Shown here: positions 11,943-28,610 of the stretch, piece after piece | How positions within the stretch are numbered: the stretch's first letter is position 1 | How the letters are laid out: every line of letters begins with the position of its first letter | From: a virus | Virus record (IMG/VR): IMGVR_UViG_3300035670_000913 | Coordinates: 1-31,002 of that record | Length of the DNA stretch: 31,002 bases | Reading direction: 5' to 3' (one strand) | Notes under the pieces: generated by a model | Seen by the model: the letters and a program-made list of their open reading frames with translations, nothing else | The model's database searches: none | What the model was told of the DNA's origin: nothing | Made by a program: the position numbers and the translations under genes

Positions 11943-11944
11943 TG

Positions 11945-12691: not shown

Positions 12692-12698
12692 TGTTATC

Positions 12699-12818: not shown

Positions 12819-12926
12819 GTGACATTCACATTCACAAGTTCTATCTGGGATACTTGATAATACTACTACGCATTGATCATGATGGCCTGTGTAGCACCAG
12901 CCAAACTTAAACTCTTTAGAAGCCAT
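12804..12926 (-). CDS. Cys/His-rich zinc-binding-like protein, 40 aa
   Basis: Starts at ATG 12926, overlapping the stop of 12916-13326 by 11 nt. The sequence includes FGWCYTGHHDQC and RTCECECH; this C...H..C...C-x-C-x-CH spacing recurs in small actinobacterial proteins that bind zinc. Translational coupling supports expression. Function is unknown. Confidence 0.65.
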   Translation of the reverse strand: MASKEFKFGWCYTGHHDQCVVVLSSIPDRTCECECHLSGN

Positions 12927-13326: not shown

Positions 13327-13332
13327 AGATAA

Positions 13333-13361
13333 ATTATAGCGGATGGTGTATAATTAGTCAA
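13333..13361. promoter_or_regulatory. Divergent leaderless promoters for 13326(-) and 13361(+)
   Basis: Leftward: TTGACT at 13361-13356, 17 bp, TATAAT at 13338-13333, then 6 nt to ATG. Rightward: TATAAT at 13349-13354, 6 nt, then ATG 13361. The rightward -10 lies inside the leftward spacer. The whole divergent control region is 34 bp long. Confidence 0.75.
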
Positions 13362-13540
13362 TGGGTAAATTCAAGTATTTAATCTTTCCAGAACAGACCT
13401 ACCAGGTTACCGTGGATGATTGGGACTTGAAGCCCTACACCTTTGAGGTCACTGGTGAAGACATCATGACAGCCTTACGTAGGGATGCCTTGCTCCAAAG
13501 AGCAATTAGAGAAGATTGGACAGAGAATGCCATTGAATGA
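13361..13540 (+). CDS. Small hypothetical protein, 59 aa
   Basis: The leaderless ATG lies 6 nt after TATAAT. The product MGKFKYLIFPEQTYQVTVDD continues with WDLKPYTFEVTGEDIMTALR and a helical end. The order of beta strands then a helix suggests a small compact domain. It overlaps the next gene by 14 nt. Confidence 0.65.
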   Translation: MGKFKYLIFPEQTYQVTVDDWDLKPYTFEVTGEDIMTALRRDALLQRAIREDWTENAIE

Positions 13541-13957: not shown

Positions 13958-14629
13958 CTATTTACTACTTATGTTCTTGCGGTCATCGTTTTGAGGCAGT
14001 GAATGTTGTTCATATGATTGCTCTAGTTGACACACATCGCTGTGAAACGGAACCTCATACGCAGGATCATCAGTAAGCCAGAATAGCATGGTGTAGCGAT
14101 CTTGAGAGATTGCCTTTACTTCGTGTACATATTCTTCTCCCTGTGCTGGGAAGATTGCCATAGAGCCAGCAGGTGGCTTTAATGAGATGTTTAGCTGTGG
14201 AAAGTCTAGCTCTCCACCATCCTTGTTTGCATTTAAATAGCAAATAATGCTAAACCTAAACTGTGGATTATGTGCACTGTCACAGTCATTGTGTGCTTCT
14301 ACCCATGCACCTGGAAGTTGCTTTGCCAGCCAGAATGAATTGACATATAGGTCTGTCGGATATTGGTAGTGTTGCTTAGCAAAATCAGTTACCTTCTTCA
14401 TATACCGCTCAATAGTAGGTCTGATATCGTCAACACCTTTAATTTCCCAAGGTGAGTTGTTCCAAAATACTTGGTCCTTGCCAAACCTAAGAGCATACCT
14501 CTGTGGGTTGTTGGCAAACTCATATCTCATAAACTTATTTGTATTGTTATCAATCCAACCCATAAGCTCCATAGAGTCATCAAAGCTTACAAAGCCAGGT
14601 ACTAAATTAACGCCATTTCCATAATCCAT
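13958..14629 (-). CDS. Fe(II)/2-oxoglutarate oxygenase, prolyl-4-hydroxylase type, 223 aa
   Basis: The leaderless ATG at 14629 lies 6 nt after TATAAT; a longer upstream frame crosses the promoter. The double-stranded beta-helix signature is present: H113-x-D115 in WVEAHNDCD, distal H169 in EEYVHEV, and R178 in QDRYTMLFWL for 2OG. Between them lie FRFSIICYLN, DGGELDFPQL and LKPPAGSMAIFPA, all classic P4Hc features. It should hydroxylate a protein or other substrate using O2, Fe(II) and 2OG. The substrate is unknown. Located next to an alpha/beta hydrolase and a GT60-like gene. Confidence 0.9.
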   Translation of the reverse strand: MDYGNGVNLVPGFVSFDDSMELMGWIDNNTNKFMRYEFANNPQRYALRFGKDQVFWNNSPWEIKGVDDIRPTIERYMKKVTDFAKQHYQYPTDLYVNSFWLAKQLPGAWVEAHNDCDSAHNPQFRFSIICYLNANKDGGELDFPQLNISLKPPAGSMAIFPAQGEEYVHEVKAISQDRYTMLFWLTDDPAYEVPFHSDVCQLEQSYEQHSLPQNDDRKNISSK

Positions 14630-14635
14630 ATATAC

Positions 14636-14663
14636 ATTATACCATGAGGAATGATGGTAAAAT
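14636..14663. promoter_or_regulatory. Divergent leaderless promoters for 14629(-) and 14671(+)
   Basis: Leftward TATAAT at 14641-14636, then 6 nt to ATG 14629. Rightward extended -10 TGGTAAAAT (14655-14663), then 7 nt to ATG 14671. Confidence 0.65.
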
Positions 14664-14670
14664 AGTAGAC

Positions 14671-15366
14671 ATGGTTGATATTTCTTTTCTAAATATGTAT
14701 TTTGAACAAATGACAGTGCTGGAAGATAGCGAGTTTTTAAAGATATCATATATTGAAAAGGACTCAGACTATGTTGTGGTGTCATTTTCTAGCACACCAC
14801 CTGATGATACGGAACCACACGAGCAATTCATTACAACTCTGACAGACAAGCGTGTGACTGGCATCTACGTAGTGGACAAAACAAGCAGCTATGGCAACAA
14901 GATAGACTGGCAGAGGATCGTTAATGCTGTAAATGGGATTGCAAATGGTAGAAAGGTGGTTGCTATTGGTTATTGCATGGGTGGCACTCTTGCAGTTGCT
15001 CTAACTAAGTACATGCCAGTGTCATATGTTCTAGCCATTACCCCACAGTATTCAATTCATCCATATATCCTGCCAAAAGATAGCTTTTTAAATCGCTGGG
15101 CAAATCAAATTGATGACTGGAAGATGCCAAGCCTAGAGGGATTCATTAATAACTTAACTAATTATGTTATCGTTAGTACTAATAATTATGATGATAGCTT
15201 CCAGGATAAGCTTTTCCCAGTGCAGGATAATGTTAGGAAAATAATTTTTGATACTGACAGACATGACCTGCCAAAAGTTATTGGCGATGACCTAGAAGAG
15301 TTTATGTTTGATCTTATAAAGTCAAATAAGATTAAGAAGAAGTTTCTACCACTTATTGTTGAATAG
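14671..15366 (+). CDS. Alpha/beta-hydrolase-like protein with GYCMGG elbow, 231 aa
   Basis: The ATG at 14671 is chosen because TAAAAT ends 7 nt before it; another ATG at 14644 precedes the -10. KVVAIGYCMGGTLAVAL at about 95-111 is a nucleophile elbow (G-x-C-x-G-G) with Cys102 in the nucleophile place, as in dienelactone hydrolases and PHA synthases. A C-terminal FDTDRHDLP segment could supply acid and His. It may hydrolyse or transfer an ester or acyl group on a glycan, but this is inferred from context only. Its end overlaps the GT60 gene by 21 nt. Confidence 0.7.
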   Translation: MVDISFLNMYFEQMTVLEDSEFLKISYIEKDSDYVVVSFSSTPPDDTEPHEQFITTLTDKRVTGIYVVDKTSSYGNKIDWQRIVNAVNGIANGRKVVAIGYCMGGTLAVALTKYMPVSYVLAITPQYSIHPYILPKDSFLNRWANQIDDWKMPSLEGFINNLTNYVIVSTNNYDDSFQDKLFPVQDNVRKIIFDTDRHDLPKVIGDDLEEFMFDLIKSNKIKKKFLPLIVE

Positions 15367-16284
15367 ATCGTTGTCTGCCAAAGACCTTATAAAGTCATAG
15401 TAGTTGCCCTGTCCATTGGCATCCCAATACTCTTTAGGACTTTTTTCTGACGGCAGGGAATACTTTGAGTAATCATTATAAATAAAAGCCATTGACATGT
15501 CACGGACTGTCATAAGATTTTCTTCATATTTAGATGTAGTCACAACACGCTGGTCCATCTTACCAACCCAGTTAGCAGCATAATAGTCTTCAGGGGTGTG
15601 CTCTATATAGTCAACATTTAGCTGATAGGTTTTCCAGCCACGCATAAATGATCTGAATGACATATACCCTTCTTCATGAGCTGTATGTGAGTATCTATCA
15701 AAACCAACATCAGAGATAAAGCTTCCATAAGTAAAGATACATCCAGAACGCCATGACGTAGTTTCTTGGACCTCTTCAAAAACTGTTATGTTGTTGTCAA
15801 CTGGTACTGGCATTACATCGTATTCAGCTAGCCATAACCCATAATTTTCAGCAAGGCTGACATCGCATTGCTTGACTGAAATAAACTTAAAGTGCTGATC
15901 ATTAACAAACTTTTCAGTCTCTCCCATTGGTGTTTGTGGCATTAAAACAACTTTATTGCCAAGACTTTGTATCTTATCTACAAGATATGTATCCCATCCT
16001 GGCTTAAACGTCATGTGAGAATCTGTCATTAGGAAATAATCTTCGTCCTGCCAAAGGGTAGTAAGCAAATACCTAACACGAATTAGTCCAGGACGATCTT
16101 CTGGTCTCCAATACATGTATCTAATCTGAGACTGATTAAACTCTGATAGATCTGGCATTTCAGAGTGCTGGATGCCAAGACCAAATACAATATCATCTGG
16201 CTTGTCAGCAGTTGCCAGGGCAGACTTGATGGTCTTAGTCAGAGTTGGATCTTCATAAGAGGCTATTGATATAAATATACTCAT
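15346..16284 (-). CDS. GT60-like glycosyltransferase (GlcNAc-transferase family), 312 aa
   Basis: MSIFISIASYEDPTLTKTIK, SALATADKPDDIVFGLGIQH, DRPGLIRVRYLLTTLW and FLMTDSHMTFKPGWD (DSH at 88-90) follow the plan of the GlcNAc glycosyltransferase family (Pfam PF11397, CAZy GT60). In that family a D-S-H replaces the DxD metal site. The best-known member is the Skp1 hydroxyproline GlcNAc-transferase of Dictyostelium. The start overlaps the upstream oxygenase stop as ATGA, so a hydroxylase and its likely glycosyltransferase are made together. The acceptor and donor are inferred only by analogy. Confidence 0.85.
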   Translation of the reverse strand: MSIFISIASYEDPTLTKTIKSALATADKPDDIVFGLGIQHSEMPDLSEFNQSQIRYMYWRPEDRPGLIRVRYLLTTLWQDEDYFLMTDSHMTFKPGWDTYLVDKIQSLGNKVVLMPQTPMGETEKFVNDQHFKFISVKQCDVSLAENYGLWLAEYDVMPVPVDNNITVFEEVQETTSWRSGCIFTYGSFISDVGFDRYSHTAHEEGYMSFRSFMRGWKTYQLNVDYIEHTPEDYYAANWVGKMDQRVVTTSKYEENLMTVRDMSMAFIYNDYSKYSLPSEKSPKEYWDANGQGNYYDFIRSLADNDLFNNKW

Positions 16285-16934
16285 TTATCCTCAAAGAATA
16301 GTACGTCTGAAGGGTTGATGTCTCCAGTAATCTCTGTAAGCTTTGGGTCAATAGTATCTTCAATATCAAAGGTGAAGAACATTGGCATCGTATACCTACG
16401 GCCCGATTCAAACTTTAATATTTTGTGCCTATACCTGCTTGGAAATAGAACCATGTCTCCAGCTTTTGGATATAGTGTAAGATCAAATTCAGGAAATGAT
16501 ATGTTGCCACCAACGTAATCATCCGTTAAGTAGGTTATTGAAGTGATATTGTATTGGTAGAAACCACCAAGAATTGCTGGCCCCCCACTTGGGGTTTCAG
16601 AATCGTTATGGATTGGCATCTCAAAGCCAATGAGCATATCCCAGTTAGTTAGGTGGGCAGCATTACGAGGAGTGCTTTTTACTGCCACACCATATCTATC
16701 TACATAATTATCTTTGACAGCATCATATGCTCTCACCTCATGACCTCTCATGATTGACAATATATGCTGACTATCAATCTCTTCCTGGTGTATTGTCCCT
16801 ACAGCTGAGGCATCTTCAATATACTTAATTAGCTCATCCCTGTCTGAATCACTAATAAAGTTGTTTAATACAATGACACCATGTGGCCCATAGCCTATCT
16901 TGGCATACTCTGAAAGATAATTGTCATAACTCAT
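16281..16934 (-). CDS. Fe(II)/2-oxoglutarate oxygenase, P4H type, 217 aa
   Basis: The leaderless ATG lies 6 nt after an extended -10 whose TG belongs to the ThyX stop codon. It carries H109-x-D111 (MPIHNDSET), distal H170 (SRYRHKIL) and R179/R180 (GRRYTMPMFF). The core strands SITYLTDD, GGNISFPEF and LYPKAGDMVLFPS are also present. The N-terminal GVIVLNNFISDSDRDELIKY is the typical lead-in of prolyl hydroxylases. Translation is coupled to the GT60 gene (ATGA), which suggests hydroxylation followed by glycosylation of the same substrate. Confidence 0.9.
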   Translation of the reverse strand: MSYDNYLSEYAKIGYGPHGVIVLNNFISDSDRDELIKYIEDASAVGTIHQEEIDSQHILSIMRGHEVRAYDAVKDNYVDRYGVAVKSTPRNAAHLTNWDMLIGFEMPIHNDSETPSGGPAILGGFYQYNITSITYLTDDYVGGNISFPEFDLTLYPKAGDMVLFPSRYRHKILKFESGRRYTMPMFFTFDIEDTIDPKLTEITGDINPSDVLFFEDK

Positions 16935-16940
16935 AGGTTA

Positions 16941-16949
16941 ATTATATCA
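16941..16949 (-). promoter_or_regulatory. Extended -10 built on the ThyX stop codon
   Basis: TGATATAAT on the minus strand; its TGA (16949-16947) is the stop codon of ThyX. The ATG of the oxygenase at 16934 is 6 nt downstream. Confidence 0.65.
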
Positions 16950-17660
16950 CTCGTAAAGTATTCCAATTGTTTCTGGGAATGCCTCTTTGGTTAATGAAAG
17001 GACTGCTTCTGCATACTTTTGAATCTCATACTGAGCATCATGCTCTAGCCTTTGATCCAGGAAGGTAAGAACTCCCTGCAACGATACCGTCCAACGCCAA
17101 CGTACGTACATGCCATATGCAGGAAGGAATAGCCTAGCAATCTCTGGGGCAACGCCATCATCCATAGCCATGTGATATGCCTCAGTGCCCTGCACAACAG
17201 CCTCACAGAGCATGTCAAAATACTTCTGGCCAATCTCTAGGTCTACTGGTTCACCAGATCCCTGCTTACTATTCTCAGGCTTACTACGCCACTCATTTGG
17301 CAGCGGAATGTAGAACTTCTCTTCCTCAGTAATGTAACGCCTAGAAGACTCGTTCCATCCGTTCTGCTCATCAACGTGTGTAGATGCTACTGCATACTTC
17401 CACCATTGCCTTGCAACAAACAGTGGAGCATAAACCTCAAACGTTAATGCAGCATGTCTGAATGGGCTGGTGTGCCTTTCACGCAAAAGAAACTTTAGTA
17501 GCTTTGCATCTTTCTCGCTAAAACTATTTGACTCCTTGTCATAGGACACCCTTGCAGCATTAGCTACTGAAAGGTCATCTCCCAGAACGTCTACAAGCCT
17601 AACGTATCCCTCATCCAATACGTTTATTGGCTCTGGTGTAGTTCTAATAAAAGTTGTCAT
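16947..17660 (-). CDS. thyX: Flavin-dependent thymidylate synthase, 237 aa
   Basis: ThyX methylates dUMP to dTMP with methylene-tetrahydrofolate, FAD and NADPH. The signature is spread over residues 84-109: RQWWKYAVAS followed by NGWNESSRRY, a phage-type version of RHRxxS...NExSxRY. Other family features are RVSYDKES, ERHTSPFRHAALTF and a C-terminal QRLEHDAQYEIQKYA. The length is normal. The ATG overlaps the preceding stop as ATGA. It serves thymidylate supply during phage replication, together with NrdH and the DUF1599-like protein. Confidence 0.97.
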   Translation of the reverse strand: MTTFIRTTPEPINVLDEGYVRLVDVLGDDLSVANAARVSYDKESNSFSEKDAKLLKFLLRERHTSPFRHAALTFEVYAPLFVARQWWKYAVASTHVDEQNGWNESSRRYITEEEKFYIPLPNEWRSKPENSKQGSGEPVDLEIGQKYFDMLCEAVVQGTEAYHMAMDDGVAPEIARLFLPAYGMYVRWRWTVSLQGVLTFLDQRLEHDAQYEIQKYAEAVLSLTKEAFPETIGILYE

Positions 17661-17842
17661 TTGTTAACGTTTCCTGTTCCTCTATTAAGTCCATAGATAT
17701 ATCCAGCCTGCCAGATTTTCATTTCATTTTCTGAGGGCATGATATTGTTTGTTAGCATCCAGTCAGCCATATCCTGCTTTGCTTTTTTGACAATTGCAGC
17801 TACTTCTGCATCGTGCTTACGTCTTTCCCAGCGATCACTCAT
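17657..17842 (-). CDS. Small protein with GYIYGLNR motif, 61 aa
   Basis: The ATG at 17842 has GGAAG upstream and overlaps the previous stop. An earlier in-frame ATG at 17857 is less likely. IWQAGYIYGLNRG matches WRSGYIAGYNRS in 13527-13727. The sequence is basic and helical at the N-terminus (DRWERRKHDAEVAAIVKKA). It is coupled to ThyX. Confidence 0.7.
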   Translation of the reverse strand: MSDRWERRKHDAEVAAIVKKAKQDMADWMLTNNIMPSENEMKIWQAGYIYGLNRGTGNVNK

Positions 17843-18113
17843 TAGGCCACTTCCCATCTAGCACCATCAATCCAATAGCACTATAGTTCATCATATCCAA
17901 AAAGCTATCTCTTAGGCTTTCATTCTCTGGGGTAGCTCCAGAATCAATAAGGTTATTAATCCTAGCTAGCTTATCATGCATACGAACACGCAAGCCATTG
18001 ATTGGTCCACCTGGACTATGAGAAATATTCTTTGGCCCATAGTCATGATGCTTTTTTAGCAAAACTGATTTTGCTTCATCATAAGTCCAGTGTACACTAT
18101 CTTCAAAATGCAT
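17835..18113 (-). CDS. DUF1599-like (nucleotide-modification-associated) protein, 92 aa
   Basis: EAKSVLLKKHHDYGPKN (about 13-29), GLRVRMHDKLARINNL (about 40-55) and a terminal DSFLDMMNYSAIGLMVL reproduce the DUF1599/Nmad1 pattern. It is an all-alpha domain with conserved H, D, R and K residues, often beside nucleotide-metabolism genes. Its location upstream of ThyX agrees. A catalytic role in nucleotide modification or hydrolysis has been proposed for the family; I cannot confirm it here. Confidence 0.8.
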   Translation of the reverse strand: MHFEDSVHWTYDEAKSVLLKKHHDYGPKNISHSPGGPINGLRVRMHDKLARINNLIDSGATPENESLRDSFLDMMNYSAIGLMVLDGKWPNE

Positions 18114-18858
18114 CTATCTCAATCCAATCTTTAGGCTTTAGGTCTTTTGTGTCATGCATAGATAGTGCAGGACCAAACCACTGTTTTGGTGCAATAACTG
18201 ATTCGCTTTCTGCAAGGTATGCACCCCACCAAGAGAAAGTACTATTGGCAATAATATGTGCAGACGCTTGCGTCATTACAAAAAGATCAGCAATATTTGA
18301 CCCAGCATACTTTGTTGCATGTCTGAATACGTCCTGCTCTACACACCACCTTACATCGTCTGAAACTACTATAAAGTTTGTTATTGGAGACATCTCCATT
18401 GCCTGCTTATAATAGTCTGCAGAAAGCATTGGGTGGTGCTCTGGGTCTTTGGCATAGTCACCACGTCTAACATGTATGACGGTATACTTCTTAGATGTAG
18501 GCTTATTAAATAAAGACCTAAAGCGAAACTCATTACGAACTTCGTCTTTTATTCCCTCAAAATATTTATATGACTGGAACCCACCCTCAAGATTTACGTT
18601 GTCTGGACAGTTATTAAATAGATTTTCATCAAAGCTAAAGTCAGACTCATGTACTGAGACATCATTTATATGCTCAGATGTCTCTGCAGTTATTCTAAAC
18701 TCATTGAGCTGATACTCATCTGCAAACTTACCAGCTGATGATTTTGGTGGAATGACAAAGTCTAGGTTGTTGTTCCTAGCAATACCCATCATAGATGCGT
18801 ATTTAAATAGTTGGTTGCCTAGCCTTCCCCAATCACCAAGGTGTTGGAACGTTAGCAT
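18103..18858 (-). CDS. GT11 alpha-1,2-fucosyltransferase-like protein, 251 aa
   Basis: The GT11 hallmarks are present. GRLGNQLFKYASMMGIA occupies residues 11-27. HVRRGDY (129-135) is the H-x-R-R-x-D motif that binds GDP-fucose. ANSTFSWWGAYLA (about 204-216) is the C-terminal motif. The enzyme should transfer fucose from GDP-fucose to a sugar acceptor. No GDP-fucose synthesis gene is visible, so the donor may come from the host or from elsewhere in the genome. The gene overlaps the one before (taATG) and after (11 nt). Confidence 0.92.
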   Translation of the reverse strand: MLTFQHLGDWGRLGNQLFKYASMMGIARNNNLDFVIPPKSSAGKFADEYQLNEFRITAETSEHINDVSVHESDFSFDENLFNNCPDNVNLEGGFQSYKYFEGIKDEVRNEFRFRSLFNKPTSKKYTVIHVRRGDYAKDPEHHPMLSADYYKQAMEMSPITNFIVVSDDVRWCVEQDVFRHATKYAGSNIADLFVMTQASAHIIANSTFSWWGAYLAESESVIAPKQWFGPALSMHDTKDLKPKDWIEIDAF

Positions 18859-19031
18859 TAGTAACCCTCATCATGCTCAACGCCGTGCTTCTGGTCAATA
18901 TACCTGTGAGCATTTCGCAAAGCCTTGCCCTTAGCAAAAAAGTATGTTGCAAGCACAAACACGCCATTCCAGAAAAACTCTGCAATAATATGCTCTAGGC
19001 CAAATACAATTTCAAGTAGGTCGTGATCCAT
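18858..19031 (-). CDS. 57-aa protein with one membrane-like helix
   Basis: ATG 19031 and TAA 18860-18858 overlap both neighbours as taATG. The segment EFFWNGVFVLATYFFAKGKA is hydrophobic and may be a membrane span; the C-terminus is His-rich and polar. The reading frame fills an otherwise empty 170-nt gap exactly, which strongly supports it. It is translated together with the fucosyltransferase. Confidence 0.65.
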   Translation of the reverse strand: MDHDLLEIVFGLEHIIAEFFWNGVFVLATYFFAKGKALRNAHRYIDQKHGVEHDEGY

Positions 19032-19240
19032 TAGTATCTTTCTTTGTTCTGAGTTATGATTTCTTTTACCTTAAATACTGCGATAGATAGTGTACCACCA
19101 TTAAAGTGTTCTGACAACTCATCTAAAATTCTTTTTCTGTCTGCAAGGATTTGCTCATGTACAAAACTATTAACAGCATCCTGGTCAGCCCTAGTCATTG
19201 GGGCATCAAGAACTAGCATGCCATGCTCATGTGTGATCAT
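19031..19240 (-). CDS. Small protein with ADRKRIL motif, 69 aa
   Basis: Overlaps its neighbours by taATG at both ends. VHEQILADRKRILDELSEHF fits the ERxRIL family seen in this window. It is followed by a predicted helix (VFKVKEIITQNK). Function is unknown. Confidence 0.7.
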   Translation of the reverse strand: MITHEHGMLVLDAPMTRADQDAVNSFVHEQILADRKRILDELSEHFNGGTLSIAVFKVKEIITQNKERY

Positions 19241-19443
19241 TAATACTTACCTGTTTCTTCTATCTTTTTTCTTAGTGCAACGAGTACGTCTATAACATAC
19301 CCTGCTTTGTCTTCACCATCTAAAAGCTCAAGTATGCGAGCTTGCTCAGCTCTTTTGCCATTAAGGTATGCCTCTCCAGCAATAGCCATCTCTTCTGGTG
19401 TACGTGGTTTTGCTAGCGGTACGCTATATTCGTGTTGACTCAT
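19240..19443 (-). CDS. Small protein with EQARIL motif, 67 aa
   Basis: The leaderless ATG at 19443 lies 6 nt after TATAAT. Residues about 22-43 (IAGEAYLNGKRAEQARILEL) belong to the ERxRIL family. First gene of the 19443-to-16947 operon that contains the fucosyltransferase and ThyX. Confidence 0.75.
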   Translation of the reverse strand: MSQHEYSVPLAKPRTPEEMAIAGEAYLNGKRAEQARILELLDGEDKAGYVIDVLVALRKKIEETGKY

Positions 19444-19449
19444 GTAATT

Positions 19450-19478
19450 ATTATACAGAGTTTGGGCTAATTAGTCAA
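19450..19478 (-). promoter_or_regulatory. Leaderless promoter TTGACT-17-TATAAT
   Basis: TTGACT at 19478-19473 and TATAAT at 19455-19450 on the minus strand, 17-bp spacer, 6 nt to ATG 19443. The -35 is inside the 3' end of the upstream gene. Confidence 0.75.
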
Positions 19479-20037
19479 GGAATGGGGAAGATAATCTCTG
19501 AGATTTTGTGTGATCTTTTCCAAAATCAGCAAACAATGCTTTGTTTTCTTGTGCCTTTACAATCTTGCGAGACCAGGAATATCCTGCATCTCCACCCCAA
19601 GCTAGCCACATCACGTATCCTTTAGATGGGTTTGCTGAGTTGCCCCAGTCTTTGCCCTGCTTGTCTACTTCGTGTCTAGAAAAATAAGAATACATACGCT
19701 TTACGGTGCTTAGCGAGAGTGTCTCTCCATTAGCCAGCTGTCTAGCTCTAGTCCATCCCACGGCAGTTCCTGCTCCTGTAGCTTTTCCGTCTTCTTTGAA
19801 CTTAATAGCTCTACGAGCAGCAGACCTGGCACCAGCAGGAGGAGAATAGCCCTCAGCCTTTTCCACAACTTCATAAACAACGTCATCTCCGTCTTCCCAA
19901 ATGTCATCAGACTTTTCTGTTGGAACGCAGTTGGGAACCATCTTCCCATTTTTTTCTTTCATGCCACGCTGTACGTAGCCTTCCCAGCAGGGTGACTTCT
20001 TCTCTAGGCCTTCTTCTGGGCAGCAATCATTATTCAT
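19471..20037 (-). CDS. Conserved phage protein with MKEKNGKMVPNCVP motif, 188 aa
   Basis: The leaderless ATG at 20037 lies 6 nt after an extended TGATATAAT. Two conserved blocks are seen: CWEGYVQRGMKEKNGKMVPN-CVP near the N-terminus, and SPPAGARSAARRAIKFKEDG, STVKRMYSYFSRHE and GYVMWLAWGGDAG-YSWSRK downstream. These recur in actinophage and other phage proteins, sometimes attached to structural or protease genes. No activity is established. The conserved central part is basic and could bind DNA. Confidence 0.8.
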   Translation of the reverse strand: MNNDCCPEEGLEKKSPCWEGYVQRGMKEKNGKMVPNCVPTEKSDDIWEDGDDVVYEVVEKAEGYSPPAGARSAARRAIKFKEDGKATGAGTAVGWTRARQLANGETLSLSTVKRMYSYFSRHEVDKQGKDWGNSANPSKGYVMWLAWGGDAGYSWSRKIVKAQENKALFADFGKDHTKSQRLSSPFLD

Positions 20038-20043
20038 AGTAAA

Positions 20044-20052
20044 ATTATATCA
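20044..20052 (-). promoter_or_regulatory. Extended -10 TGATATAAT, leaderless
   Basis: TATAAT at 20049-20044 on the minus strand, TG one base upstream; 6 nt to ATG 20037. Confidence 0.65.
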
Positions 20053-20056
20053 CAGG

Positions 20057-20278
20057 TTAGGCTGCAAGCTGCTCTAGCATATCAGGCCTGAACCCTGCCC
20101 AGTTACCTGCCTCAGAAATTACTACTGGTGCTGAAGAAAATCCCATTCCAAGAATCATGTCTAGTGCTGCTGGATCTGTTGTAATATCAACAGTCTCGTA
20201 TGATACCCCTGCTTTATCCAGGTATCTCTTTGTCATATCGCACTGCACGCATGCAGGCTTTGTATAAACCGTAGTCAT
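20057..20278 (-). CDS. nrdH: NrdH/glutaredoxin-like redoxin, 73 aa
   Basis: A small thiol carrier with YTKPACVQCDMTKRYLD; active-site CVQC at about residues 11-14. SSAPVVIS (cis-Pro strand) and a GFRPDML end are typical of NrdH. It supplies electrons to ribonucleotide reductase, which lies outside the window. ATG 20278 is preceded by GAGGAG; an in-frame TTG lies 15 nt upstream. The start has a real leader with a Shine-Dalgarno sequence, unlike its neighbours. Confidence 0.88.
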   Translation of the reverse strand: MTTVYTKPACVQCDMTKRYLDKAGVSYETVDITTDPAALDMILGMGFSSAPVVISEAGNWAGFRPDMLEQLAA

Positions 20279-20307
20279 AGGTCTCCTCTTCAATTGTTAG
20301 TGTATCT

Positions 20308-20313
20308 ATTATA
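20308..20313 (-). promoter_or_regulatory. -10 TATAAT for the nrdH transcript
   Basis: Minus-strand TATAAT about 29 nt upstream of ATG 20278, leaving a leader of about 23 nt with a GAGGAG ribosome-binding site. A -35 is not clear (TTGCAT, 19-bp spacing). Confidence 0.5.
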
Positions 20314-20370
20314 CTCAAGTGTTTTTTGTAGAATGCAAAGAATTATTACATTTTTATAACAGAGATAGTA

Positions 20371-20379
20371 TGGTATCAT
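20371..20379 (+). promoter_or_regulatory. Extended -10 TGGTATCAT, leaderless
   Basis: TATCAT at 20374-20379 with TG one base upstream; 6 nt to ATG 20386. Confidence 0.55.
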
Positions 20380-20385
20380 AGATTT

Positions 20386-20949
20386 ATGGCAGTGTCAATT
20401 AATCACGAACGAATAGAGCTTTTTAAGCAAGAGTTTGAGTCAGATCTCACATGGAAAGACATTGAAGAGATTTACGACTGGTTTAGAAAAGATGCACCAA
20501 TAGATAGATTTTCAGTTATTGGAACAGCAATTTGTCGCTCAGAGATTAATGAAAAAATAAACTATTTAAAGAACCTTGCTGATGGCTGGCATCCAGGAAA
20601 CTTTATAGATGCCATGACAATCATTCAGTTTGAAAATATAACCACTGGCAGATCAATTCCTGACGAAGCAAAGTCTATTCATTCTAAGTTTCGCCAAGAT
20701 ACCCCAGATGAATTGCCTGAGTGGTTTGATCTTAATATGTTAACACCAGTTATTCATAGCGATCCAGTAGATGGAATTTTCTTTCAGCTAATTGGAACTG
20801 TATTGTGGAAAATGTATTACGATGATGGAACCATAGACTCTCGTGTGCTACAGCCAGGAGACGTTCTAGTTGTTCCCAAAAATATTAGACATAGCGTGGA
20901 GTCTCTTGAGCCAAGATGCTCTTTGTCTGTATCTTTTACTGATGCATAG
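20386..20949 (+). CDS. JmjC/cupin-type Fe(II)/2OG oxygenase-like protein, 187 aa
   Basis: Residues 124-169 hold the metal triad: H124-S-D126 (PVIHSDPVDG) and H169 (PKNIRHSV). FFQLIGTVLWKMYYDDG then LQPGDVLVVPKNIRHS follow the JmjC/ribosomal-oxygenase layout, in which K142 could bind 2OG. These enzymes hydroxylate proteins (His, Arg or Lys). The N-terminal half is a helical segment without clear relatives. It differs from the four P4H-type oxygenases in the region. The start is leaderless. Confidence 0.75.
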   Translation: MAVSINHERIELFKQEFESDLTWKDIEEIYDWFRKDAPIDRFSVIGTAICRSEINEKINYLKNLADGWHPGNFIDAMTIIQFENITTGRSIPDEAKSIHSKFRQDTPDELPEWFDLNMLTPVIHSDPVDGIFFQLIGTVLWKMYYDDGTIDSRVLQPGDVLVVPKNIRHSVESLEPRCSLSVSFTDA

Positions 20950-20958
20950 TGGTATAAT
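20950..20958 (+). promoter_or_regulatory. Extended -10 TGGTATAAT, leaderless
   Basis: TATAAT at 20953-20958; 8 nt to ATG 20967. It starts immediately after the stop of the upstream oxygenase. Confidence 0.6.
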
Positions 20959-20966
20959 ATTACTAC

Positions 20967-21212
20967 ATGTCAATATTCGCAGAATTTCAGGCTTATAAAG
21001 AAAAACAAGGCTGTAAGGATTGTGGAGTTAAATATCCGCACTACATTCTTGAATTTGACCACCGTCCTGGCAAGAAGAAGGTGGACATAGTTTATCGTGT
21101 CCTTAAAAAATATGGGCGTGAAGCTGCCTGGAATGAAGTAAGAAAATGTGATGTTGTTTGCTCCAACTGTCACAAAGAAAGAACTTATATGAGAGAAATG
21201 AGAGAAGAATGA
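20967..21212 (+). CDS. HNH-like zinc protein, 81 aa
   Basis: CKDCGVKYPHYILEFDHRPG (residues about 16-35) and CDVVCSNCHKERTY (about 60-73) match a common family of short phage HNH-type proteins. Two CxxC pairs hold zinc and the F-D-H motif supplies the catalytic His. It may nick or cut DNA, or act in packaging as other phage HNH proteins do. The end overlaps the next start as ATGA. Confidence 0.85.
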   Translation: MSIFAEFQAYKEKQGCKDCGVKYPHYILEFDHRPGKKKVDIVYRVLKKYGREAAWNEVRKCDVVCSNCHKERTYMREMREE

Positions 21213-21793
21213 TCATTGTAGATGACAACTTCGTTGATGAAAATACAATTGCCAAGATTGAGCACCTGATTACTGGATGGAATAACCAACCAATTGGCTG
21301 GGTATTTGCACCTGCCAGCAATACTGAGAATGAAGACGGTGGGGCAATCATTGACAAGAATGTTTTTGAACACCCAATGTTTGTTGCAGTTCTAACTCAA
21401 GAGCACCAGCATCCGCTAAGAAAAGAAATTATATCCTTAGCAGAATCATTTTTTAGAAAGAACAAGATCTTGTTTAGCGAGATCCTAAGAATTAAAATTA
21501 ATATTGTTCCAATGGCACCACTTTCAAGCTATGGTAAGTATCAAATGCCACACATTGATACTGATAGAGACCACAAGGTTTTCTTGTATTATGTTAATGA
21601 TGCTGACGGTGATACCATCCTATTCAATGAGATGAAAGAGGATGGGAAGCCTACACCAACAAAGTTTACAGAAAAGCGTAGGGTAACACCTAAGCGTGGG
21701 CGTGGACTAGTGTTTGATGGAAGCAACTACCATGCACCAACTGCACCAGTTAGCTCTATTTATCGCTGTGTTATTAATATAGACTTTGTATAA
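21209..21793 (+). CDS. Fe(II)/2-oxoglutarate oxygenase, P4H type, 194 aa
   Basis: I choose ATG 21209, which overlaps the HNH gene stop as ATGA. The protein carries H115-x-D117 (MPHIDTDRDH), distal H175 (GSNYHAPTAP) and R186 (SIYRCVINIDF). Strands VFLYYVNDADGDTILFNE and TPKRGRGLVFDGS are typical of phage and cyanophage 2OG oxygenases. It converges on the GT60-epimerase fusion with a 20-nt overlap, a second instance of an oxygenase next to a GT60 domain. Confidence 0.9.
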   Translation: MIIVDDNFVDENTIAKIEHLITGWNNQPIGWVFAPASNTENEDGGAIIDKNVFEHPMFVAVLTQEHQHPLRKEIISLAESFFRKNKILFSEILRIKINIVPMAPLSSYGKYQMPHIDTDRDHKVFLYYVNDADGDTILFNEMKEDGKPTPTKFTEKRRVTPKRGRGLVFDGSNYHAPTAPVSSIYRCVINIDFV

Positions 21794-23636
21794 TATAGTC
21801 AATTACACTTTTTGATGGAGAATAGCCCAAGGCACTAGCTGCAGAAGAAATATCTGCCAAAGTGTTTTGGGCTTCTCCTTTTCTAGAATCAACATACTCA
21901 ACATTATTTGATATGGTGCCTGCTATCTCATTGATTGAAAAGTTAGTTCCAGTACCAACATTAATAATGTTGTTATCAGGGATAGTGCATGTAGCAGCTG
22001 AAATAGTAGCAGATACAACATCGTCTACATGAGTAAAGTCTCTCCTCTGCCCACCATCTCCAACAATAGTCAGTGGCTCATCACTGAAGAACTGTTTAAG
22101 AAATCTTCCCACTACTGGGGCATAGGAGCCTCTCACAGGCTCTCTGAGACCATAAACATTAAAGTACCTAAGTATTACTACGTCCAAATTAAAAAGGTTT
22201 TTATAGATATTTGCAATATTTTCTGCAGCTAGCTTAGATGCTGAGTATGGGTTTAAACAATTAGCAGGGTCTGATTCCTTATTTGGAAGGCTACCATTAC
22301 CATAGATAGATGATGTAGATGCCAGAATAACTCTTTGTACCATTGCTTCCCTGGCACACTGTAGCACTACAGATGTTCCATACACGTTAGTATGTATAGT
22401 CTTGGTTGGGTCTTCCTGGATACTTGGCTGAATTCGTGGCTGAGCTGCTAGATGAAAGACATAGTCTGCACCATTATATATGTGCCTTGTATCGTCATAG
22501 TTTGTGATATCAAGCTTGCAGTTTGTGGCCTGATCATTCCAATAAAACTGGTCATGGGATTCAGATGATTCATTATCTATTACGATCACCTTGTGACCAA
22601 GGCTAATTAATCTATCAACCAAATTTGAGCCTATGAATCCAGCACCACCAGTAACAATGCTAATTGGCTGTTCTCCAAAGTCTGGAGCCTCTGGGTCAGA
22701 GAATAGGCCAAGCTCAATGATTCTGTCGTATTCCTTTTCAAGGCCTATAGCAACATAAAAGTCTCTGGGTTGCCTGTCACTATTAATCTTATATGGCCCA
22801 ACATTGTAAAGCATAGACCTGATGATTTGATAAATAGTTCTGCCACGATCTGTGAGGGCACTAAAAGTTTTTGTTTTTGCAATCTCTGAATAGTTACCGT
22901 TGGCATTTTGGTTATGATACATATAAACATTTTTGTATGAACGATAGATTGTCCAGCCCCTCATAAATGCTATATAAGAACTAAACGTCTCTTCACCATA
23001 ATTTCTGGCACTATCAAACATCCATCCGTCTTTTATATAGTCGTGATGAAAGAAAAACATGTGATGGGATGAGTAGTATGTTGGAACAAAGTCTTGATGC
23101 TCAGAGATAATTACTTTTGGTTCAGCATGCAGAAAGTCAAAGTTTGTAACCTCACTTTCTGGCTTATTCCAAACAGTATATGCGTGTGGCTGTGGCCCAT
23201 CGTAATCTTTGCAGTTACAGTTCTGATCGTTACCATCAATGTGCCTTGTGTCTTCCCCCATTTGTGCAGAAATAATTACCTGATGCCCATGTTTAGACTG
23301 CAAATCTAGATAGTCATTAATTAATTTAGTATCCCATCCTTGCACAAAGGTTGTATGTGAATCGCACAACAAAACATATTCCTGACCAGAATGCAGTCTG
23401 GCTAGCCTATTGCGTAGCTGCATTACACCTGGCCTAGAGTCAACATCATAGTCTACAAATATAAAATTAGGACTTTTACGAAACTCTTCAACATCTGGAT
23501 ATGGACATTCTTTATACTGCATTGCTATTGCAAACGATAAACTTTCTGGTCTATCTGCATTTTTTATACAATCATTAACTGTATTAACTAATGTTCCGTC
23601 TTCATATGCTGGAATCATAATGAATATGTTATTCAT
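21774..23636 (-). CDS. GT60-like glycosyltransferase fused to UDP-sugar 4-epimerase, 620 aa
   Basis: Residues 1 to about 315 repeat the GT60 plan of 15346-16284: IPAYEDGTLVNTVNDCIKNA, VDSRPGVMQLRNRLARLHSG, LLCDSHTTFVQGWD with DSH at 92-94, and AFMRGWTIYRS. Residues about 325-620 form an extended short-chain dehydrogenase: GGAGFIG at 330-336, FHLAAQPRIQPSI, STSSIYG near 441-446 and catalytic Y464-x3-K468. They resemble UDP-glucose or UDP-GlcNAc 4-epimerases (GalE/WbpP). The fusion suggests that the same protein makes and uses the donor sugar. The ATG overlaps the preceding gene by 8 nt. Confidence 0.88.
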   Translation of the reverse strand: MNNIFIMIPAYEDGTLVNTVNDCIKNADRPESLSFAIAMQYKECPYPDVEEFRKSPNFIFVDYDVDSRPGVMQLRNRLARLHSGQEYVLLCDSHTTFVQGWDTKLINDYLDLQSKHGHQVIISAQMGEDTRHIDGNDQNCNCKDYDGPQPHAYTVWNKPESEVTNFDFLHAEPKVIISEHQDFVPTYYSSHHMFFFHHDYIKDGWMFDSARNYGEETFSSYIAFMRGWTIYRSYKNVYMYHNQNANGNYSEIAKTKTFSALTDRGRTIYQIIRSMLYNVGPYKINSDRQPRDFYVAIGLEKEYDRIIELGLFSDPEAPDFGEQPISIVTGGAGFIGSNLVDRLISLGHKVIVIDNESSESHDQFYWNDQATNCKLDITNYDDTRHIYNGADYVFHLAAQPRIQPSIQEDPTKTIHTNVYGTSVVLQCAREAMVQRVILASTSSIYGNGSLPNKESDPANCLNPYSASKLAAENIANIYKNLFNLDVVILRYFNVYGLREPVRGSYAPVVGRFLKQFFSDEPLTIVGDGGQRRDFTHVDDVVSATISAATCTIPDNNIINVGTGTNFSINEIAGTISNNVEYVDSRKGEAQNTLADISSAASALGYSPSKSVIDYIIQSLY

Positions 23637-25004: not shown

Positions 25005-25013
25005 ATTATATCA
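25005..25013 (-). promoter_or_regulatory. Extended -10 built on the GT61 stop codon
   Basis: TGATATAAT on the minus strand; its TGA (25013-25011) is the stop codon of the GT61-like gene. The transcript would start near 24998, giving a leader of about 42 nt to the Hsp20 ATG, with a TGCC...GGCA hairpin near its 5' end. Confidence 0.6.
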
Positions 25014-26057
25014 TAAACAATCTAGGGTATCTAATTCTTCTATAACATCATCTATATTACAGTGTTCAGGTGGACGCAAGAGATTAATCCTACCTCCTTG
25101 GAAAAGAAATTTATAATTAACTGAAGTATACGTATGTCCATACTCAGTTAAATAGTGCTCAAAATCATAGTTCCACCAGTTTGCAGTATGGATGCCTATA
25201 ACCTGACCACCAGGTGGCATAAATAGTGCATTTACTAAGTTGCTGCCCTTTGTTCCTGCAAAATGAGTAGCACTACTACAAATATCTATTTGCTGATCAA
25301 TTGATAGCTTTGAAAAGTCAACAACTTTATAACCCTTTTTTGCAAAGTATTGTGCCAACCTTTGCTCTTGTGGATGAAATCTTGTAGTATATACTGCATT
25401 AATTTCTTTATCCTTAGTATCAATAGACATGTCAGATGATATTGGAAGCGAGTTTCTTATTGAGTATATTTTTTGTGGACCGCCTGTTTTAGACCTTTTA
25501 GATGATAGAAGTTTGTATGTGCCAGCTAGCAGCATTGCAGTTCTTGGGCCAGCCAAGTTGCCAACGTTGTACTCCGTGCAATCAAGGAATCTTATATTTT
25601 GAAAAAGGCCAGACTCTGTTGACCATCCAACCTTTGAGTTGCCTGACAAATATTGCATATTTAGCAGACCGTAAGCATTTTCAAAAACTACAACACTCTC
25701 CTCGCCTGATTGATTTAGTATTATGGGGTTATACAGTTCAATAATCTTTTGAACAACACTATTGGCCCACTTTTCTTTTGTTGGAAATAAAACAAGTCTA
25801 ATGCTTTTGTTATAAGATCTTAGAATCTCGTACTCACCTATAATATCCGTAATAAGATGGTAGTATGGGGAAGGTAAGAATGCAACAAAAAAGTCACCCT
25901 TCAGCTCTAGCCAACCAGAAGGATTTGCTTTATTATGTAGGTTTACTTTTGCCTTATGAGCGTGAAGAATGTTTAGGCCTTCTTTCCACTCCAAGACCTC
26001 GTACTTCTTTGCTGAGACTCTTGTCATTGGATTAAGCTTTAATTCTTCTGGTGGCAT
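25011..26057 (-). CDS. GT61-like glycosyltransferase, 348 aa
   Basis: The C-terminal half has the GT61 (DUF563) pattern: RFHPQEQRLAQYFAKKGYKV, VDFSKLSIDQQIDICSSATH, FAGTKGSNLVNALFMPPGG and QVIGIHTANWWNYD. The N-terminal part contains FLPSPYYHLITDIIGEYEIL, the family's usual 'YYHwl.D.l.rl' block. Enzymes of this family add xylose, GlcNAc or related sugars; bacterial members are often in capsule clusters. Leaderless ATG 6 nt after TATAAT, back to back with a sugar-nucleotide operon. Confidence 0.85.
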   Translation of the reverse strand: MPPEELKLNPMTRVSAKKYEVLEWKEGLNILHAHKAKVNLHNKANPSGWLELKGDFFVAFLPSPYYHLITDIIGEYEILRSYNKSIRLVLFPTKEKWANSVVQKIIELYNPIILNQSGEESVVVFENAYGLLNMQYLSGNSKVGWSTESGLFQNIRFLDCTEYNVGNLAGPRTAMLLAGTYKLLSSKRSKTGGPQKIYSIRNSLPISSDMSIDTKDKEINAVYTTRFHPQEQRLAQYFAKKGYKVVDFSKLSIDQQIDICSSATHFAGTKGSNLVNALFMPPGGQVIGIHTANWWNYDFEHYLTEYGHTYTSVNYKFLFQGGRINLLRPPEHCNIDDVIEELDTLDCL

Positions 26058-26084: not shown

Positions 26085-26810
26085 GTGCATATTATAATCC
26101 CAATGGCTGGCAAAGGTTCCAGATTTGAAAAGGCTGGCTATACCACTCCCAAGCCACTAATTGAAGTTAACGGCATTACTCTGGCTGAACATTCTATTAC
26201 TAGCCTTGGTATTGACGGCACATTTGTTTTTATTACCCGTGACTTTGAAAATCCAGATGATAACGAAAAGCTAACTAAAATATTTGAAAAGACATGCAAA
26301 AGCTTTATTGAGATTAGGGTTAATGATGAGCATCTAGGTGCAGCACACAGTGCATTGTTTGCTGAACACTACATCAATAATATGGAAGAGCTTATCGTTA
26401 CAAATTGCGATCAGCACATGGACTGGGATGCTGAACACTTTATGAATTGGGTAGAAAAAGATGAGTCTGATGGTGCAGTTGTTCTTTACTTATCAGATAA
26501 CCCTAAGAATAGTTTTGCAGTTCTTGATGATAATGGATTTGCATTGGCGATAGCAGAAAAGCAGCCAATAAGCAACAATGCCCTTGTTGGTATACACTAC
26601 TGGAAGCACGCATACATGTTCTTTGAGTCTGCACGCAAAGCCGTAGCTGATTATAAAGATCAGGGATATCCTGAGTGCTATGTCTCTATTACGTACAACT
26701 ATTTAATTAAAGAAGGTTTAAATATTAGAGGCTACCACTTGTTTAGTGATGAATATAAATCTTTGGGTACCCCACAAGACATAGAAAGTTATTTAAATGA
26801 GCAGCGATAG
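26085..26810 (+). CDS. Sugar-phosphate nucleotidyltransferase, 241 aa (GTG start)
   Basis: IIPMAGKGSRFEKAGYTTPK-PLIEVNG at about 4-30 is the G-x-G-x-R-F...P-K pyrophosphorylase signature, and VTNCDQHMDWD at about 105-115 is the metal-binding block. The enzyme should join a sugar-1-phosphate to a nucleotide. The GTG at 26085 lies 6 nt after TATAAT. First gene of a five-gene rightward operon with HAD, cupin, GDPD-like and 2OG genes. The sugar is not predictable. Confidence 0.9.
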   Translation: MHIIIPMAGKGSRFEKAGYTTPKPLIEVNGITLAEHSITSLGIDGTFVFITRDFENPDDNEKLTKIFEKTCKSFIEIRVNDEHLGAAHSALFAEHYINNMEELIVTNCDQHMDWDAEHFMNWVEKDESDGAVVLYLSDNPKNSFAVLDDNGFALAIAEKQPISNNALVGIHYWKHAYMFFESARKAVADYKDQGYPECYVSITYNYLIKEGLNIRGYHLFSDEYKSLGTPQDIESYLNEQR

Positions 26811-27204
26811 AGGAAAACAGGCAGAGTTTTATACAGACAAGCCTAAGACAATTATCTGTGACCTTGATGGCACCATTCTTAAACATGCACATGTGTTTAG
26901 TGATTTAGACAAGTATGACCCACAACTAAATCCTGGAGTTATTGATAAGCTAAACTACTGGGACTCACTTGGACACACAATTGTTCTTATGACTGCACGC
27001 AAAGAATCAGCCAGAGAAATGACTGAAAGACACTTGCGATCTCTTGGGGTAATGTGGGACCATCTAATTATGGGTGTTACATCTGGAAAGCGTGTTCTGA
27101 TTAATGATAAACTAGAGTTACAAGATCCTGATCGTGCTGTTGCCGTCAATGTAATTACAGATCTTGGCTTTAATAATACAGATTGGGAAGGTCTTGGGCT
27201 ATGA
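26797..27204 (+). CDS. HAD-family phosphatase-like protein, 135 aa
   Basis: IICDLDGTILKHAHVFSDLD carries the D-x-D-G-T nucleophile motif (about residues 19-25). IVLMTARKESAREMTERHL holds the T/S motif II, and RVLINDKLELQ the distal Lys/Asp region. It is short and cap-less, as in capsule-associated HADs found next to nucleotidyltransferases. It probably removes phosphate from a sugar phosphate precursor. Overlaps the previous gene by 14 nt and the next by 4 nt. Confidence 0.88.
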   Translation: MSSDRGKQAEFYTDKPKTIICDLDGTILKHAHVFSDLDKYDPQLNPGVIDKLNYWDSLGHTIVLMTARKESAREMTERHLRSLGVMWDHLIMGVTSGKRVLINDKLELQDPDRAVAVNVITDLGFNNTDWEGLGL

Positions 27205-27530
27205 TTCTTGGTAAGCTAGAAGATACTATTGGTGGATGGTTTGTTGGCAACTTTGATAAGGCTATTTATAAAACAAAAGGACTAGAAGTTTCTTTTAAAA
27301 TTCATAAAAAAGATGAGAAGTGGGATTGGCACTATCATGAGCACCTTGATGAGATTAACCTTCTTGTACGAGGAACCATGACCCTACAAGGAAAGACATT
27401 CGTTCCTGGAGATATTTTTGTTCTAGAGCCAATGGAAATAGCAGATCCAGTATTTCATGAAGACTGCGAAGTAGTTTGCATTAAGGTTCCTAACTTTACT
27501 AATGATAAGATTGTGGTAAAACGCCAATGA
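27201..27530 (+). CDS. Cupin-domain protein, 109 aa
   Basis: ATG 27201 overlaps the HAD stop as ATGA. WHYHEHLDEINLLVRGTMTL carries the H-x-H-x4-E core (about 43-50), and FVPGDIFVLEP is the second cupin motif. Small cupins of this kind occur in capsule and sugar-nucleotide operons as isomerases or regulators. The substrate is unknown. Confidence 0.85.
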   Translation: MILGKLEDTIGGWFVGNFDKAIYKTKGLEVSFKIHKKDEKWDWHYHEHLDEINLLVRGTMTLQGKTFVPGDIFVLEPMEIADPVFHEDCEVVCIKVPNFTNDKIVVKRQ

Positions 27531-27994
27531 AGTTTATAGCACATAGGGGAAACGTAGCTGGCAAGACAAATAAAGAAAATCGCCCAGACCATGTCCTATC
27601 TGCTATAGAACATGGATTTGACGTAGAAGTAGACGTTAGAGGATATAACGACAGGCTGTGGCTAGGACATGACAAGATGGATTACCTAGTATCTGGAAGT
27701 TTACTTAGAGAGCTGATACCACACACATGGTTTCACTGTAAAAATCTAGAAGCTCTTGAATACTTTGCTTCCCGTCCCTGGCTAGATGCAAACTATTTTT
27801 GGCATCAGCAGGATGACTATACAATAACAAGTCATGGGAACATTTGGGCTTTTCCTGGCAAACCAGTGTCTAAAAACTCTGTAATACTTTTACCAGAATA
27901 TTTTGGGTATATAATTGATATGAATGCCTATGGCATATGTACAGACTTTCCTATAGAGATGAAAGAGAGGGTTGAGAGTGCCAACCAGTCGTAG
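27527..27994 (+). CDS. Glycerophosphodiesterase-like (PI-PLC fold) protein, 155 aa
   Basis: FIAHRGNVAGKTNKENRPDH (HRG motif), VLSAIEHGFDVEVDVRGYND (E and D metal ligands) and LWLGHDK match the N-terminal half of the GDPD barrel. The C-terminal half is shorter than in a full GDPD (about 240 aa), as in compact versions found in capsule clusters. It may cleave or transfer a phosphodiester-linked polyol. ATG overlaps the cupin stop as ATGA. Confidence 0.82.
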   Translation: MKFIAHRGNVAGKTNKENRPDHVLSAIEHGFDVEVDVRGYNDRLWLGHDKMDYLVSGSLLRELIPHTWFHCKNLEALEYFASRPWLDANYFWHQQDDYTITSHGNIWAFPGKPVSKNSVILLPEYFGYIIDMNAYGICTDFPIEMKERVESANQS

Positions 27995-28610
27995 CACACG
28001 TGGCAAAGAGTTTAGCTTTGAATCACCAATTCCTGGGCTACACATCTACAACATTGAACTTGATGAAGACCTGTTAGAAAAATTAAAGAATAGCAGTGAG
28101 CTTCAAAGAGAAGATTACTATAAAAATGAGAGATTTGGCAAAAGCTCTTTGTCGCTTTGGATAGAGCACCAAGATCCAGCAACCACAATACTAGCAGACG
28201 CATTTGAAGAAGTTGTTGACTCTTATTTTGTATACTATAGAATTGGACCTAACTCAAGAGAAGGCTGGAGATTCTCAAAGTTTGAACCAGGAGACTTCTT
28301 TGGTTCACATCCAGACGATAGTTATGCAACTCCAAGAACAGCCTCACTAACATATTACCCAAATGATGATTACGAAGGTGGGGAGATAGAGTTTGAACAC
28401 TTTGGTGTAAAGATTAAGCCAAAGAAAAATCAGCTATTCATATTCCCATCTGGATATTCTTATCGCCACTTTGTCCACCCAATTACTTCTGGAATTAGAT
28501 ATAATCTTGTGACATTCTTTTCAAACATGACTTATGAAGAGAAGCAGGCACGAATTGATCTTGTTGGAGAACACGGACAAATGGTTAAAACTAAGTATTT
28601 GCTTAGATAA
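27978..28610 (+). CDS. Fe(II)/2-oxoglutarate oxygenase, P4H type, 210 aa
   Basis: GTG 27978 is preferred, with AGAGAGG 7 nt upstream; a TTG at 27972 is too close to that site. H111-x-D113 (FFGSHPDDS), distal H167 (RHFVHPI) and R174 (GIRYNLVTFF) form the active site. SLTYYPNDDYEGGEIEFEHF and IKPKKNQLFIFPSGY are the usual P4Hc strands. It ends the nucleotidyltransferase operon, so its substrate may be a product of that pathway or a protein carrying it. It overlaps the GDPD-like gene by 17 nt. Confidence 0.9.
   Translation: MPTSRSTRGKEFSFESPIPGLHIYNIELDEDLLEKLKNSSELQREDYYKNERFGKSSLSLWIEHQDPATTILADAFEEVVDSYFVYYRIGPNSREGWRFSKFEPGDFFGSHPDDSYATPRTASLTYYPNDDYEGGEIEFEHFGVKIKPKKNQLFIFPSGYSYRHFVHPITSGIRYNLVTFFSNMTYEEKQARIDLVGEHGQMVKTKYLLR

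Follow-up and report, generated by a model that had tools for sequence, protein, structure and literature searches.

In the Skp1 PhyA-Gnt1-PgtA pathway of Dictyostelium and Toxoplasma, a prolyl 4-hydroxylase (P4H)-type oxygenase is followed by an enzyme of glycosyltransferase (GT) family GT60 with a DxH motif (PMC6939170, PMC7185993). The latter, Gnt1, acts on the hydroxyproline of Skp1 and requires PhyA (PMC6939170), and another characterised GT60 enzyme acts on mucin threonine (PMC9472816). GT60 groups with family GT27, and both have DxH in place of DxD (PMC7185993). The closest viral precedent is mimivirus L230, a lysyl hydroxylase-glucosyltransferase which, together with R699, represents virus-encoded protein hydroxylation and then glycosylation of collagen (PMC9546862). 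According to one paper, the prolyl hydroxylases that collagen requires are absent from bacteria and viruses (PMC3368898). The present analysis concerns a phage sequence, IMG/VR record IMGVR_UViG_3300035670_000913 (31,002 bases, all of which is referred to as the window), in which a P4H-type Fe(II)/2-oxoglutarate (2OG) oxygenase gene, P4H-1, directly precedes a GT60 gene, GT60-1 (Table 1). A preliminary description of this DNA had proposed a hydroxylation and glycosylation system here, and every open reading frame (ORF) that it named is present where it was placed.

The coupling of the two genes by ATGA, proposed in that description, is confirmed: the stop codon of P4H-1 overlaps the start of GT60-1, and a GAGG ribosome-binding site lies upstream. 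Both proteins also score above the Pfam cut-offs, P4H-1 for PF13640 (2OG-FeII_Oxy_3; 30.3 bits against 27) and GT60-1 for PF11397 (GlcNAc/GT60; 4e-21, 76.3 bits against 21). The H109, D111 and H170 residues of P4H-1 are invariant in 32 P4H-type homologues, and R180 is arginine in 31 of these and lysine in one. In GT60-1, D88 and H90 of the DxH motif, W97, D98, E204 and G216 are invariant across 37 GT60 homologues, and the motif reads DSH in both GT60 domains of the window. AlphaFold (AF2) models are confident, with mean per-residue confidence (pLDDT) of 96.0 for P4H-1 and 87.5 for GT60-1. The best PDB folds found by Foldseek for P4H-1 are the Bacillus P4H, the PBCV-1 viral collagen P4H, human P3H1 and the Chlamydomonas P4H; ranks 1-15 are all prolyl hydroxylases, with PHD2, LH3 and the Dictyostelium prolyl hydroxylase ranking lower. 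The first 37 PDB fold matches of GT60-1 are all polypeptide N-acetylgalactosamine (GalNAc) transferases, and profile searches of PDB sequences give the same classes for both proteins. The fold check suggested in the preliminary description thus agrees with its assignments, although the TM-scores of the fold matches are moderate (0.5-0.6), placing each enzyme in a class and not in a specificity, and do not pin down the P4H clade. Judged by profile, by the iron-binding triad with a basic 2OG-binding residue and by the closest solved fold, P4H-1 is a predicted prolyl-4-hydroxylase-type 2OG oxygenase; GT60-1 is assigned to GT60 by profile, DxH motif and a GT-A fold nearest to GT27, and polypeptide transferase activity is predicted for it.

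The solved structures nearest to P4H-1, those of Bacillus anthracis P4H and PBCV-1 vCPH, share its facial triad but are about 15-18% identical to it, and P4H-1 differs from them in having arginine at the 2-oxoglutarate-binding position. To our knowledge, neither of these enzymes has a GT partner. The GT27 polypeptide GalNAc-transferases are likewise the nearest solved folds to GT60-1 and share the DxH motif (PMC7185993), but they have about 15% identity to it, use serine and threonine of mucins as acceptors and occur without a hydroxylase partner.

A scan of viral contigs for relatives of P4H-1 gave two loci only, and GT60 was for this reason used as the anchor; scans of viral data for GT60 relatives returned hundreds of contigs. 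Retention of P4H-GT60 adjacency in related phages had been set beforehand as the key test, and the adjacency was found to be retained. The closest relative, a 66-kb IMG/VR record (L005/G001), keeps P4H-1, GT60-1, an alpha/beta hydrolase gene and a second P4H-type gene, P4H-2, in the same order, with identities to the window of 50%, 51%, 45% and 40%, respectively. P4H directly adjoined GT60 in most of the loci closest to GT60-1 in the first GT60 set, in some clades upstream of it and in others downstream. With the sequences clustered at 70% identity, the next gene is a P4H in 19 of 51 phage GT60 clusters and in 15 of the 28 clusters near GT60-1. Eight large relatives have 34 P4H genes in all, and 13 of these are in contact with a GT60-type gene, where random placement predicts 2.0; when genes were shuffled locally within neighbourhoods, the mean was 4.1 contacts and the maximum in 20,000 trials was 13, the number observed. 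The conserved adjacency is well beyond chance. In a tree of 86 representatives the P4H-adjacent state needs nine changes, and starred branches force at least three of these in the phage group and four in the bacterial group; the adjacency is clade-structured yet not a single event. No relative of GT60-1 was found by tblastn among 50,697 phage records. Another GT60 used as query matched, among isolated phages, only Xanthomonas phage XacN1 and two Stenotrophomonas phages; the gene next to the XacN1 GT60 encodes a carbamoyltransferase, and no P4H is annotated there.

The pairing recurs in a second transferase family and in bacteria. The G001 genome and other relatives encode a divergent GT of about 285 amino acids (aa), of which three of eight members match PF11397 weakly, with GT2 also appearing. 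Of the 41 viral loci found in a scan for this family, 36 have a P4H as the next gene downstream, as do 22 of the 26 clusters formed at 70%; the window fragment is without this second GT-P4H unit. A GT60 profile scan of genome contigs gave 80 bacterial loci, of which 26 contain a P4H match, adjacent in 23. Nearly all of these 23 are from SAR86, with divergently oriented genes; the SAR86 P4H matches the Bacillus P4H (4.6e-34) and human collagen P4H (2.3e-27), and its GT60 neighbour scores 6.9e-45. Two proteobacterial metagenome-assembled genomes encode GT60-P4H fusion proteins: L193, with GT60 at residues 1-301 (1.5e-53) and P4H at 431-611 (1.5e-16), and L189, with GT60 at 48-345 (4e-40) and P4H at 552-743 (7e-14). 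The L193 contig is short (5.2 kb), and its assignment to Burkholderiales depends on binning. Since the same two families are fused in these proteins and are neighbours elsewhere, the fusions are strong evidence that GT60 and P4H would act on one substrate. Functional coupling of the two is supported by adjacency in both orders, by the second family, by the SAR86 pairs and by the bacterial fusions.

On the basis of sequences and models, P4H-1 and GT60-1 probably form a two-step protein-modification module, a reading held with moderate confidence, in which P4H-1 would first hydroxylate a polypeptide residue during infection and the translationally coupled GT60-1 would then attach an N-acetylhexosamine (HexNAc), derived from a uridine diphosphate (UDP) sugar, to the new hydroxyl. 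A protein acceptor is expected because the characterised GT60 enzymes act on Skp1 hydroxyproline or mucin threonine. The target residue is likely proline, with lysine or another residue also possible, and the substrate would be a late or surface protein made by the phage. The epimerase domain fused to the second GT60 protein, GT60-2, may supply UDP-N-acetylglucosamine (UDP-GlcNAc) or UDP-GalNAc. The closest solved structure to this domain is the WbpP UDP-GlcNAc/GalNAc 4-epimerase (1sb8, 1.7e-43), stand-alone relatives of it directly precede GT60 in L045 and L082, and in L014 the gene of a different epimerase runs into the start of GT60. Such fused or adjacent epimerases fit a HexNAc donor and are suggestive only. 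A broader proposal, that prokaryotes O-glycosylate hydroxyproline or hydroxylysine by P4H together with GT60 or its sister transferase, in phages and marine bacteria, and that phage late proteins are decorated in this way at several sites, is put forward tentatively.

Compared with the Skp1 pathway, the P4H and GT60 steps of the parallel drawn in the preliminary description stand, while its fucose step does not. The PgtA fucosyltransferase belongs to CAZy family GT74 and is a different enzyme from the GT11 of the window (18103-18858). This GT11, confirmed as such by Pfam, had been taken as the third step of the pathway; none of the related loci contains a relative of it, and no gene for guanosine diphosphate (GDP)-fucose synthesis was seen, which together place a fucose step outside the core. 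A Skp1 or ubiquitin context is not expected in a phage. Further, the phage genes are adjacent and the bacterial ones also fused, whereas we know of no report of adjacency or fusion of the eukaryotic PhyA/Gnt1 pair. The mimivirus system differs in belonging to the lysyl hydroxylase clade, in using another GT family and in its eukaryotic giant-virus setting, in place of P4H and GT60 in phages.

Candidate substrates were sought among the eight large relatives. Collagen-like proteins are encoded in G004, G006, G007, G013 and G016, and long PEPTPTPEP stretches are found in a 769-aa protein of G001 and a 443-aa protein of G009, whereas G012 has neither a collagen-like nor a PEPTP-rich protein. Surface or secreted proteins encoded by the phage, as in L010 of G001, are a candidate target class. 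Several P4H-GT pairs are present per genome (three in G012; two each in G001, G006, G007 and G009), which argues for several targets. Glycosyltransferases and collagen-like proteins are also encoded by cultured phages of Nanopelagicales (PMC10202952). Animal collagens have proline at the Y position, as this is where P4H acts (PMC3368898).

A number of observations weigh against a hydroxylation and glycosylation module. Of the phage GT60 clusters, 32 of 51 are without P4H as a neighbour, as are most loci of the bacterial scan, so that GT60 does not need a P4H neighbour. The regions are generally rich in sugar and 2OG genes, and some of the adjacency is regional, for which the local shuffle allows. 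GT60 enzymes can also act on serine and threonine, and small molecules, free amino acids among them, are further substrates of P4H-type folds. The search for proline-rich or collagen-like proteins suggested in the preliminary description succeeded in seven of the eight large relatives, but collagen-like matches also occur in three of four GT60 phages chosen without an adjacent P4H. The collagen triplets of five P4H-GT60 phages have 23 prolines in X and 15 in Y of 112, a distribution that does not favour a collagen-type P4H. Collagen was not favoured as the substrate on these two grounds, and no substrate was pinned down among the collagen-like and proline-rich candidates of the relatives.

Four other explanations were weighed. 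The pair might modify a host protein, such as elongation factor Tu (EF-Tu) or a different factor of the cytosol, leaving a Skp1-like regulatory mark that redirects the cell. Fold matches of P4H-1 do include the EF-Tu-binding P4Hs of Bacillus and Pseudomonas (5v7y, 4iw3), and the characterised GT60 Gnt1 acts on a cytosolic protein (PMC6939170); however, several divergent P4H-GT pairs per genome suggest several sites or targets, and the pairs lie in variable cassettes alongside genes for sugar nucleotides and glycan decoration, more like surface decoration, so that this explanation appears rather unlikely. A second alternative is that the oxygenases have a sugar, a lipid or a free amino acid as substrate, with the GTs assembling or capping a polysaccharide of the host surface or a glycan bound to the tail. 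Epimerases lie nearby, the window contains GT11 and GT61 genes, the neighbourhoods of relatives hold UDP-sugar dehydrogenase, PIG-L-like deacetylase, carbamoyltransferase and sulfotransferase-like genes, and the teichoic-acid transferases TarS and TarP stand further down the Foldseek list of GT60-1. The best sequence and fold matches of P4H-1 and GT60-1 are nevertheless to protein-modifying enzymes, and unrelated small substrates would hardly account for a GT60-P4H fusion; surface-glycan or small-molecule chemistry is likewise considered rather unlikely.

Modified and glucosylated bases have phage precedent, and an oxygenase that oxidises a base which a GT then glycosylates would find genes for ThyX and DUF1599 close by and TET-like enzymes low in the profile list of P4H-1. 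The TET matches are, however, weaker than those to prolyl hydroxylases by six to seven orders of magnitude, there is no TET/JBP Pfam match, and we know of no DNA activity of GT60. DNA hypermodification was rejected for the far weaker TET-type similarity and is very improbable. An equally small chance is given to mere regional coincidence of two families common in variable cassettes, their adjacency being without functional meaning. The majority of GT60 clusters have no P4H neighbour and the cassettes are mosaic, but against this stand the excess over the local shuffle, the fixed GT-P4H order in the second family, the occurrence of both orders across clades, and the independent bacterial pairs and fusions.

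Table 1. Genes and domains of the window considered in the analysis
Feature	Position	Strand	Description
P4H-2	13958..14629	-	P4H-type 2OG oxygenase; PHROG 2297/81; HxD..H..R kept
Alpha/beta hydrolase (dienelactone-hydrolase-like)	14644..15366	+	240 aa; PF01738 21.8 bits against 21
GT60-1	15346..16284	-	Polypeptide-GlcNAc-transferase-family enzyme (predicted), 312 aa; D88-S-H90; ATGA-coupled to P4H-1
P4H-1	16281..16934	-	Prolyl-hydroxylase-type Fe(II)/2OG oxygenase (predicted), 217 aa, complete; H109-x-D111...H170...R180
GT11 (alpha-1,2-fucosyltransferase family)	18103..18858	-	PF01531 1.3e-22; PHROG 2644 1.4e-77
P4H-like 2OG oxygenase	21209..21793	+	ORF 21158-21793; PHROG 274; tail-to-tail with GT60-2
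GT60-2	21774..23636	-	GT60 domain aa 1-320 fused to sugar-nucleotide epimerase domain aa 323-620
GT61-family glycosyltransferase	25011..26057	-	PF04577 1.5e-11; same sugar cassette
Five-gene run	26085..28610	+	Sugar-1-phosphate nucleotidyltransferase (PF00483), HAD phosphatase, cupin-like, conserved unknown, 2OG oxygenase
P4H-type 2OG oxygenase	27972..28610	+	PF13640 1.5e-10; PHROG 61; triad kept; outside 13958-23636

The hydrolase gene is convergent with GT60-1 and overlaps its 3' end by 21 base pairs; genes 41-46% identical to it are found in L009, L014, L018, L019 and L035. The hydrolase and its counterpart in L005 (10931-11635) have a GYCMGG nucleophile elbow, with cysteine replacing serine, and it adjoins GT60-1 in the closest relatives. 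The ORF of P4H-2 (13958-14785, 275 aa) is over-extended; its start is placed at about 14629, because 14644 is the first base of the divergent hydrolase gene and the alignment of the relative's protein starts at the corresponding methionine.

The GT60 domain expected in GT60-2 is borne out by PF11397 (2.5e-11, 44.1 bits against 21), and the NAD-dependent epimerase domain matches PF01370 (1.2e-55). The oxygenase facing it had been described as P4H-type; PHROG 274 (3e-29) and an HxD...H...R motif kept by eye agree with this, while its Pfam score (20.9 bits) is below the cut-off. The proposal that this oxygenase and GT60-2 form a second hydroxylase-GT60 pair was abandoned: the genes with which this oxygenase is conserved, in L014 and partly in G001, are an HNH gene (20967-21212) and a JmjC-like gene, and not GT60. 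Downstream, the first four genes of the five-gene run (26085-27994) are conserved in L094, where the first two are fused, and three are conserved in G009.

Several further genes were noted. The product of 19471-20037 carries the motif CWxGYxQRGMKxKxGKMVPNCVP and is conserved in phages; it matches solely PHROG families of unknown function and is found near sugar cassettes in 28 related loci or records. Two related proteins (23629-24435 and 29051-29896) share a GDSL-like motif, FAGCSVTxG / VAGDSLTFG, have no Pfam match and recur next to P4H-GT cassettes in relatives; from their motif they are possibly SGNH-type acyl or acetyl esterases or transferases. Two adjacent paralogues of about 245 aa precede the second GT-P4H pair wherever the locus was read (G001, G004, G006, G009 and G012); they lie at 5974-7461 in L010 of G001 and have a conserved N-terminal motif, PEPA..(I/V)PEWYK, one being weakly DUF6065, and such DUF6065-like paralogues are a possible candidate for substrate or partner. 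Also in L010, proteins encoded at 8872-9639, 11145-13454 and 17100-17999 have N-termini resembling actinobacterial signal peptides, and one of them has a long PEPTP stretch.

Annotated phages give almost no nucleotide match to the window, with about 195 bases of ThyX matching two Streptomyces phages. A WhiB-like gene (30496-30777), together with the ThyX and DUF1599 genes and genes common to other uncultured contigs, suggests an actinobacterial host. GT60 proved rare in the one bacterial order surveyed, being present in 8 of 300 genomes.

A literature search that left most subscription journals outside it yielded no account of paired P4H and GT60 genes in phages or bacteria, and the step of hydroxylating and then glycosylating a protein is, as far as found, new for phages. 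A suggested readout is hydroxyproline and HexNAc in virions, and a suggested use is that of small soluble enzymes glycosylating hydroxyproline peptides. Proteins in which a hydroxyl is introduced and then glycosylated are known from eukaryotes and giant viruses; if the reading given here is true, the P4H-GT60 module in phages and SAR86 would extend this modification to prokaryotes. In that case the PhyA-Gnt1 step of eukaryotes would represent a single branch of a broader P4H-GT60 alliance, and the module a possible source of the protist Skp1 pathway.

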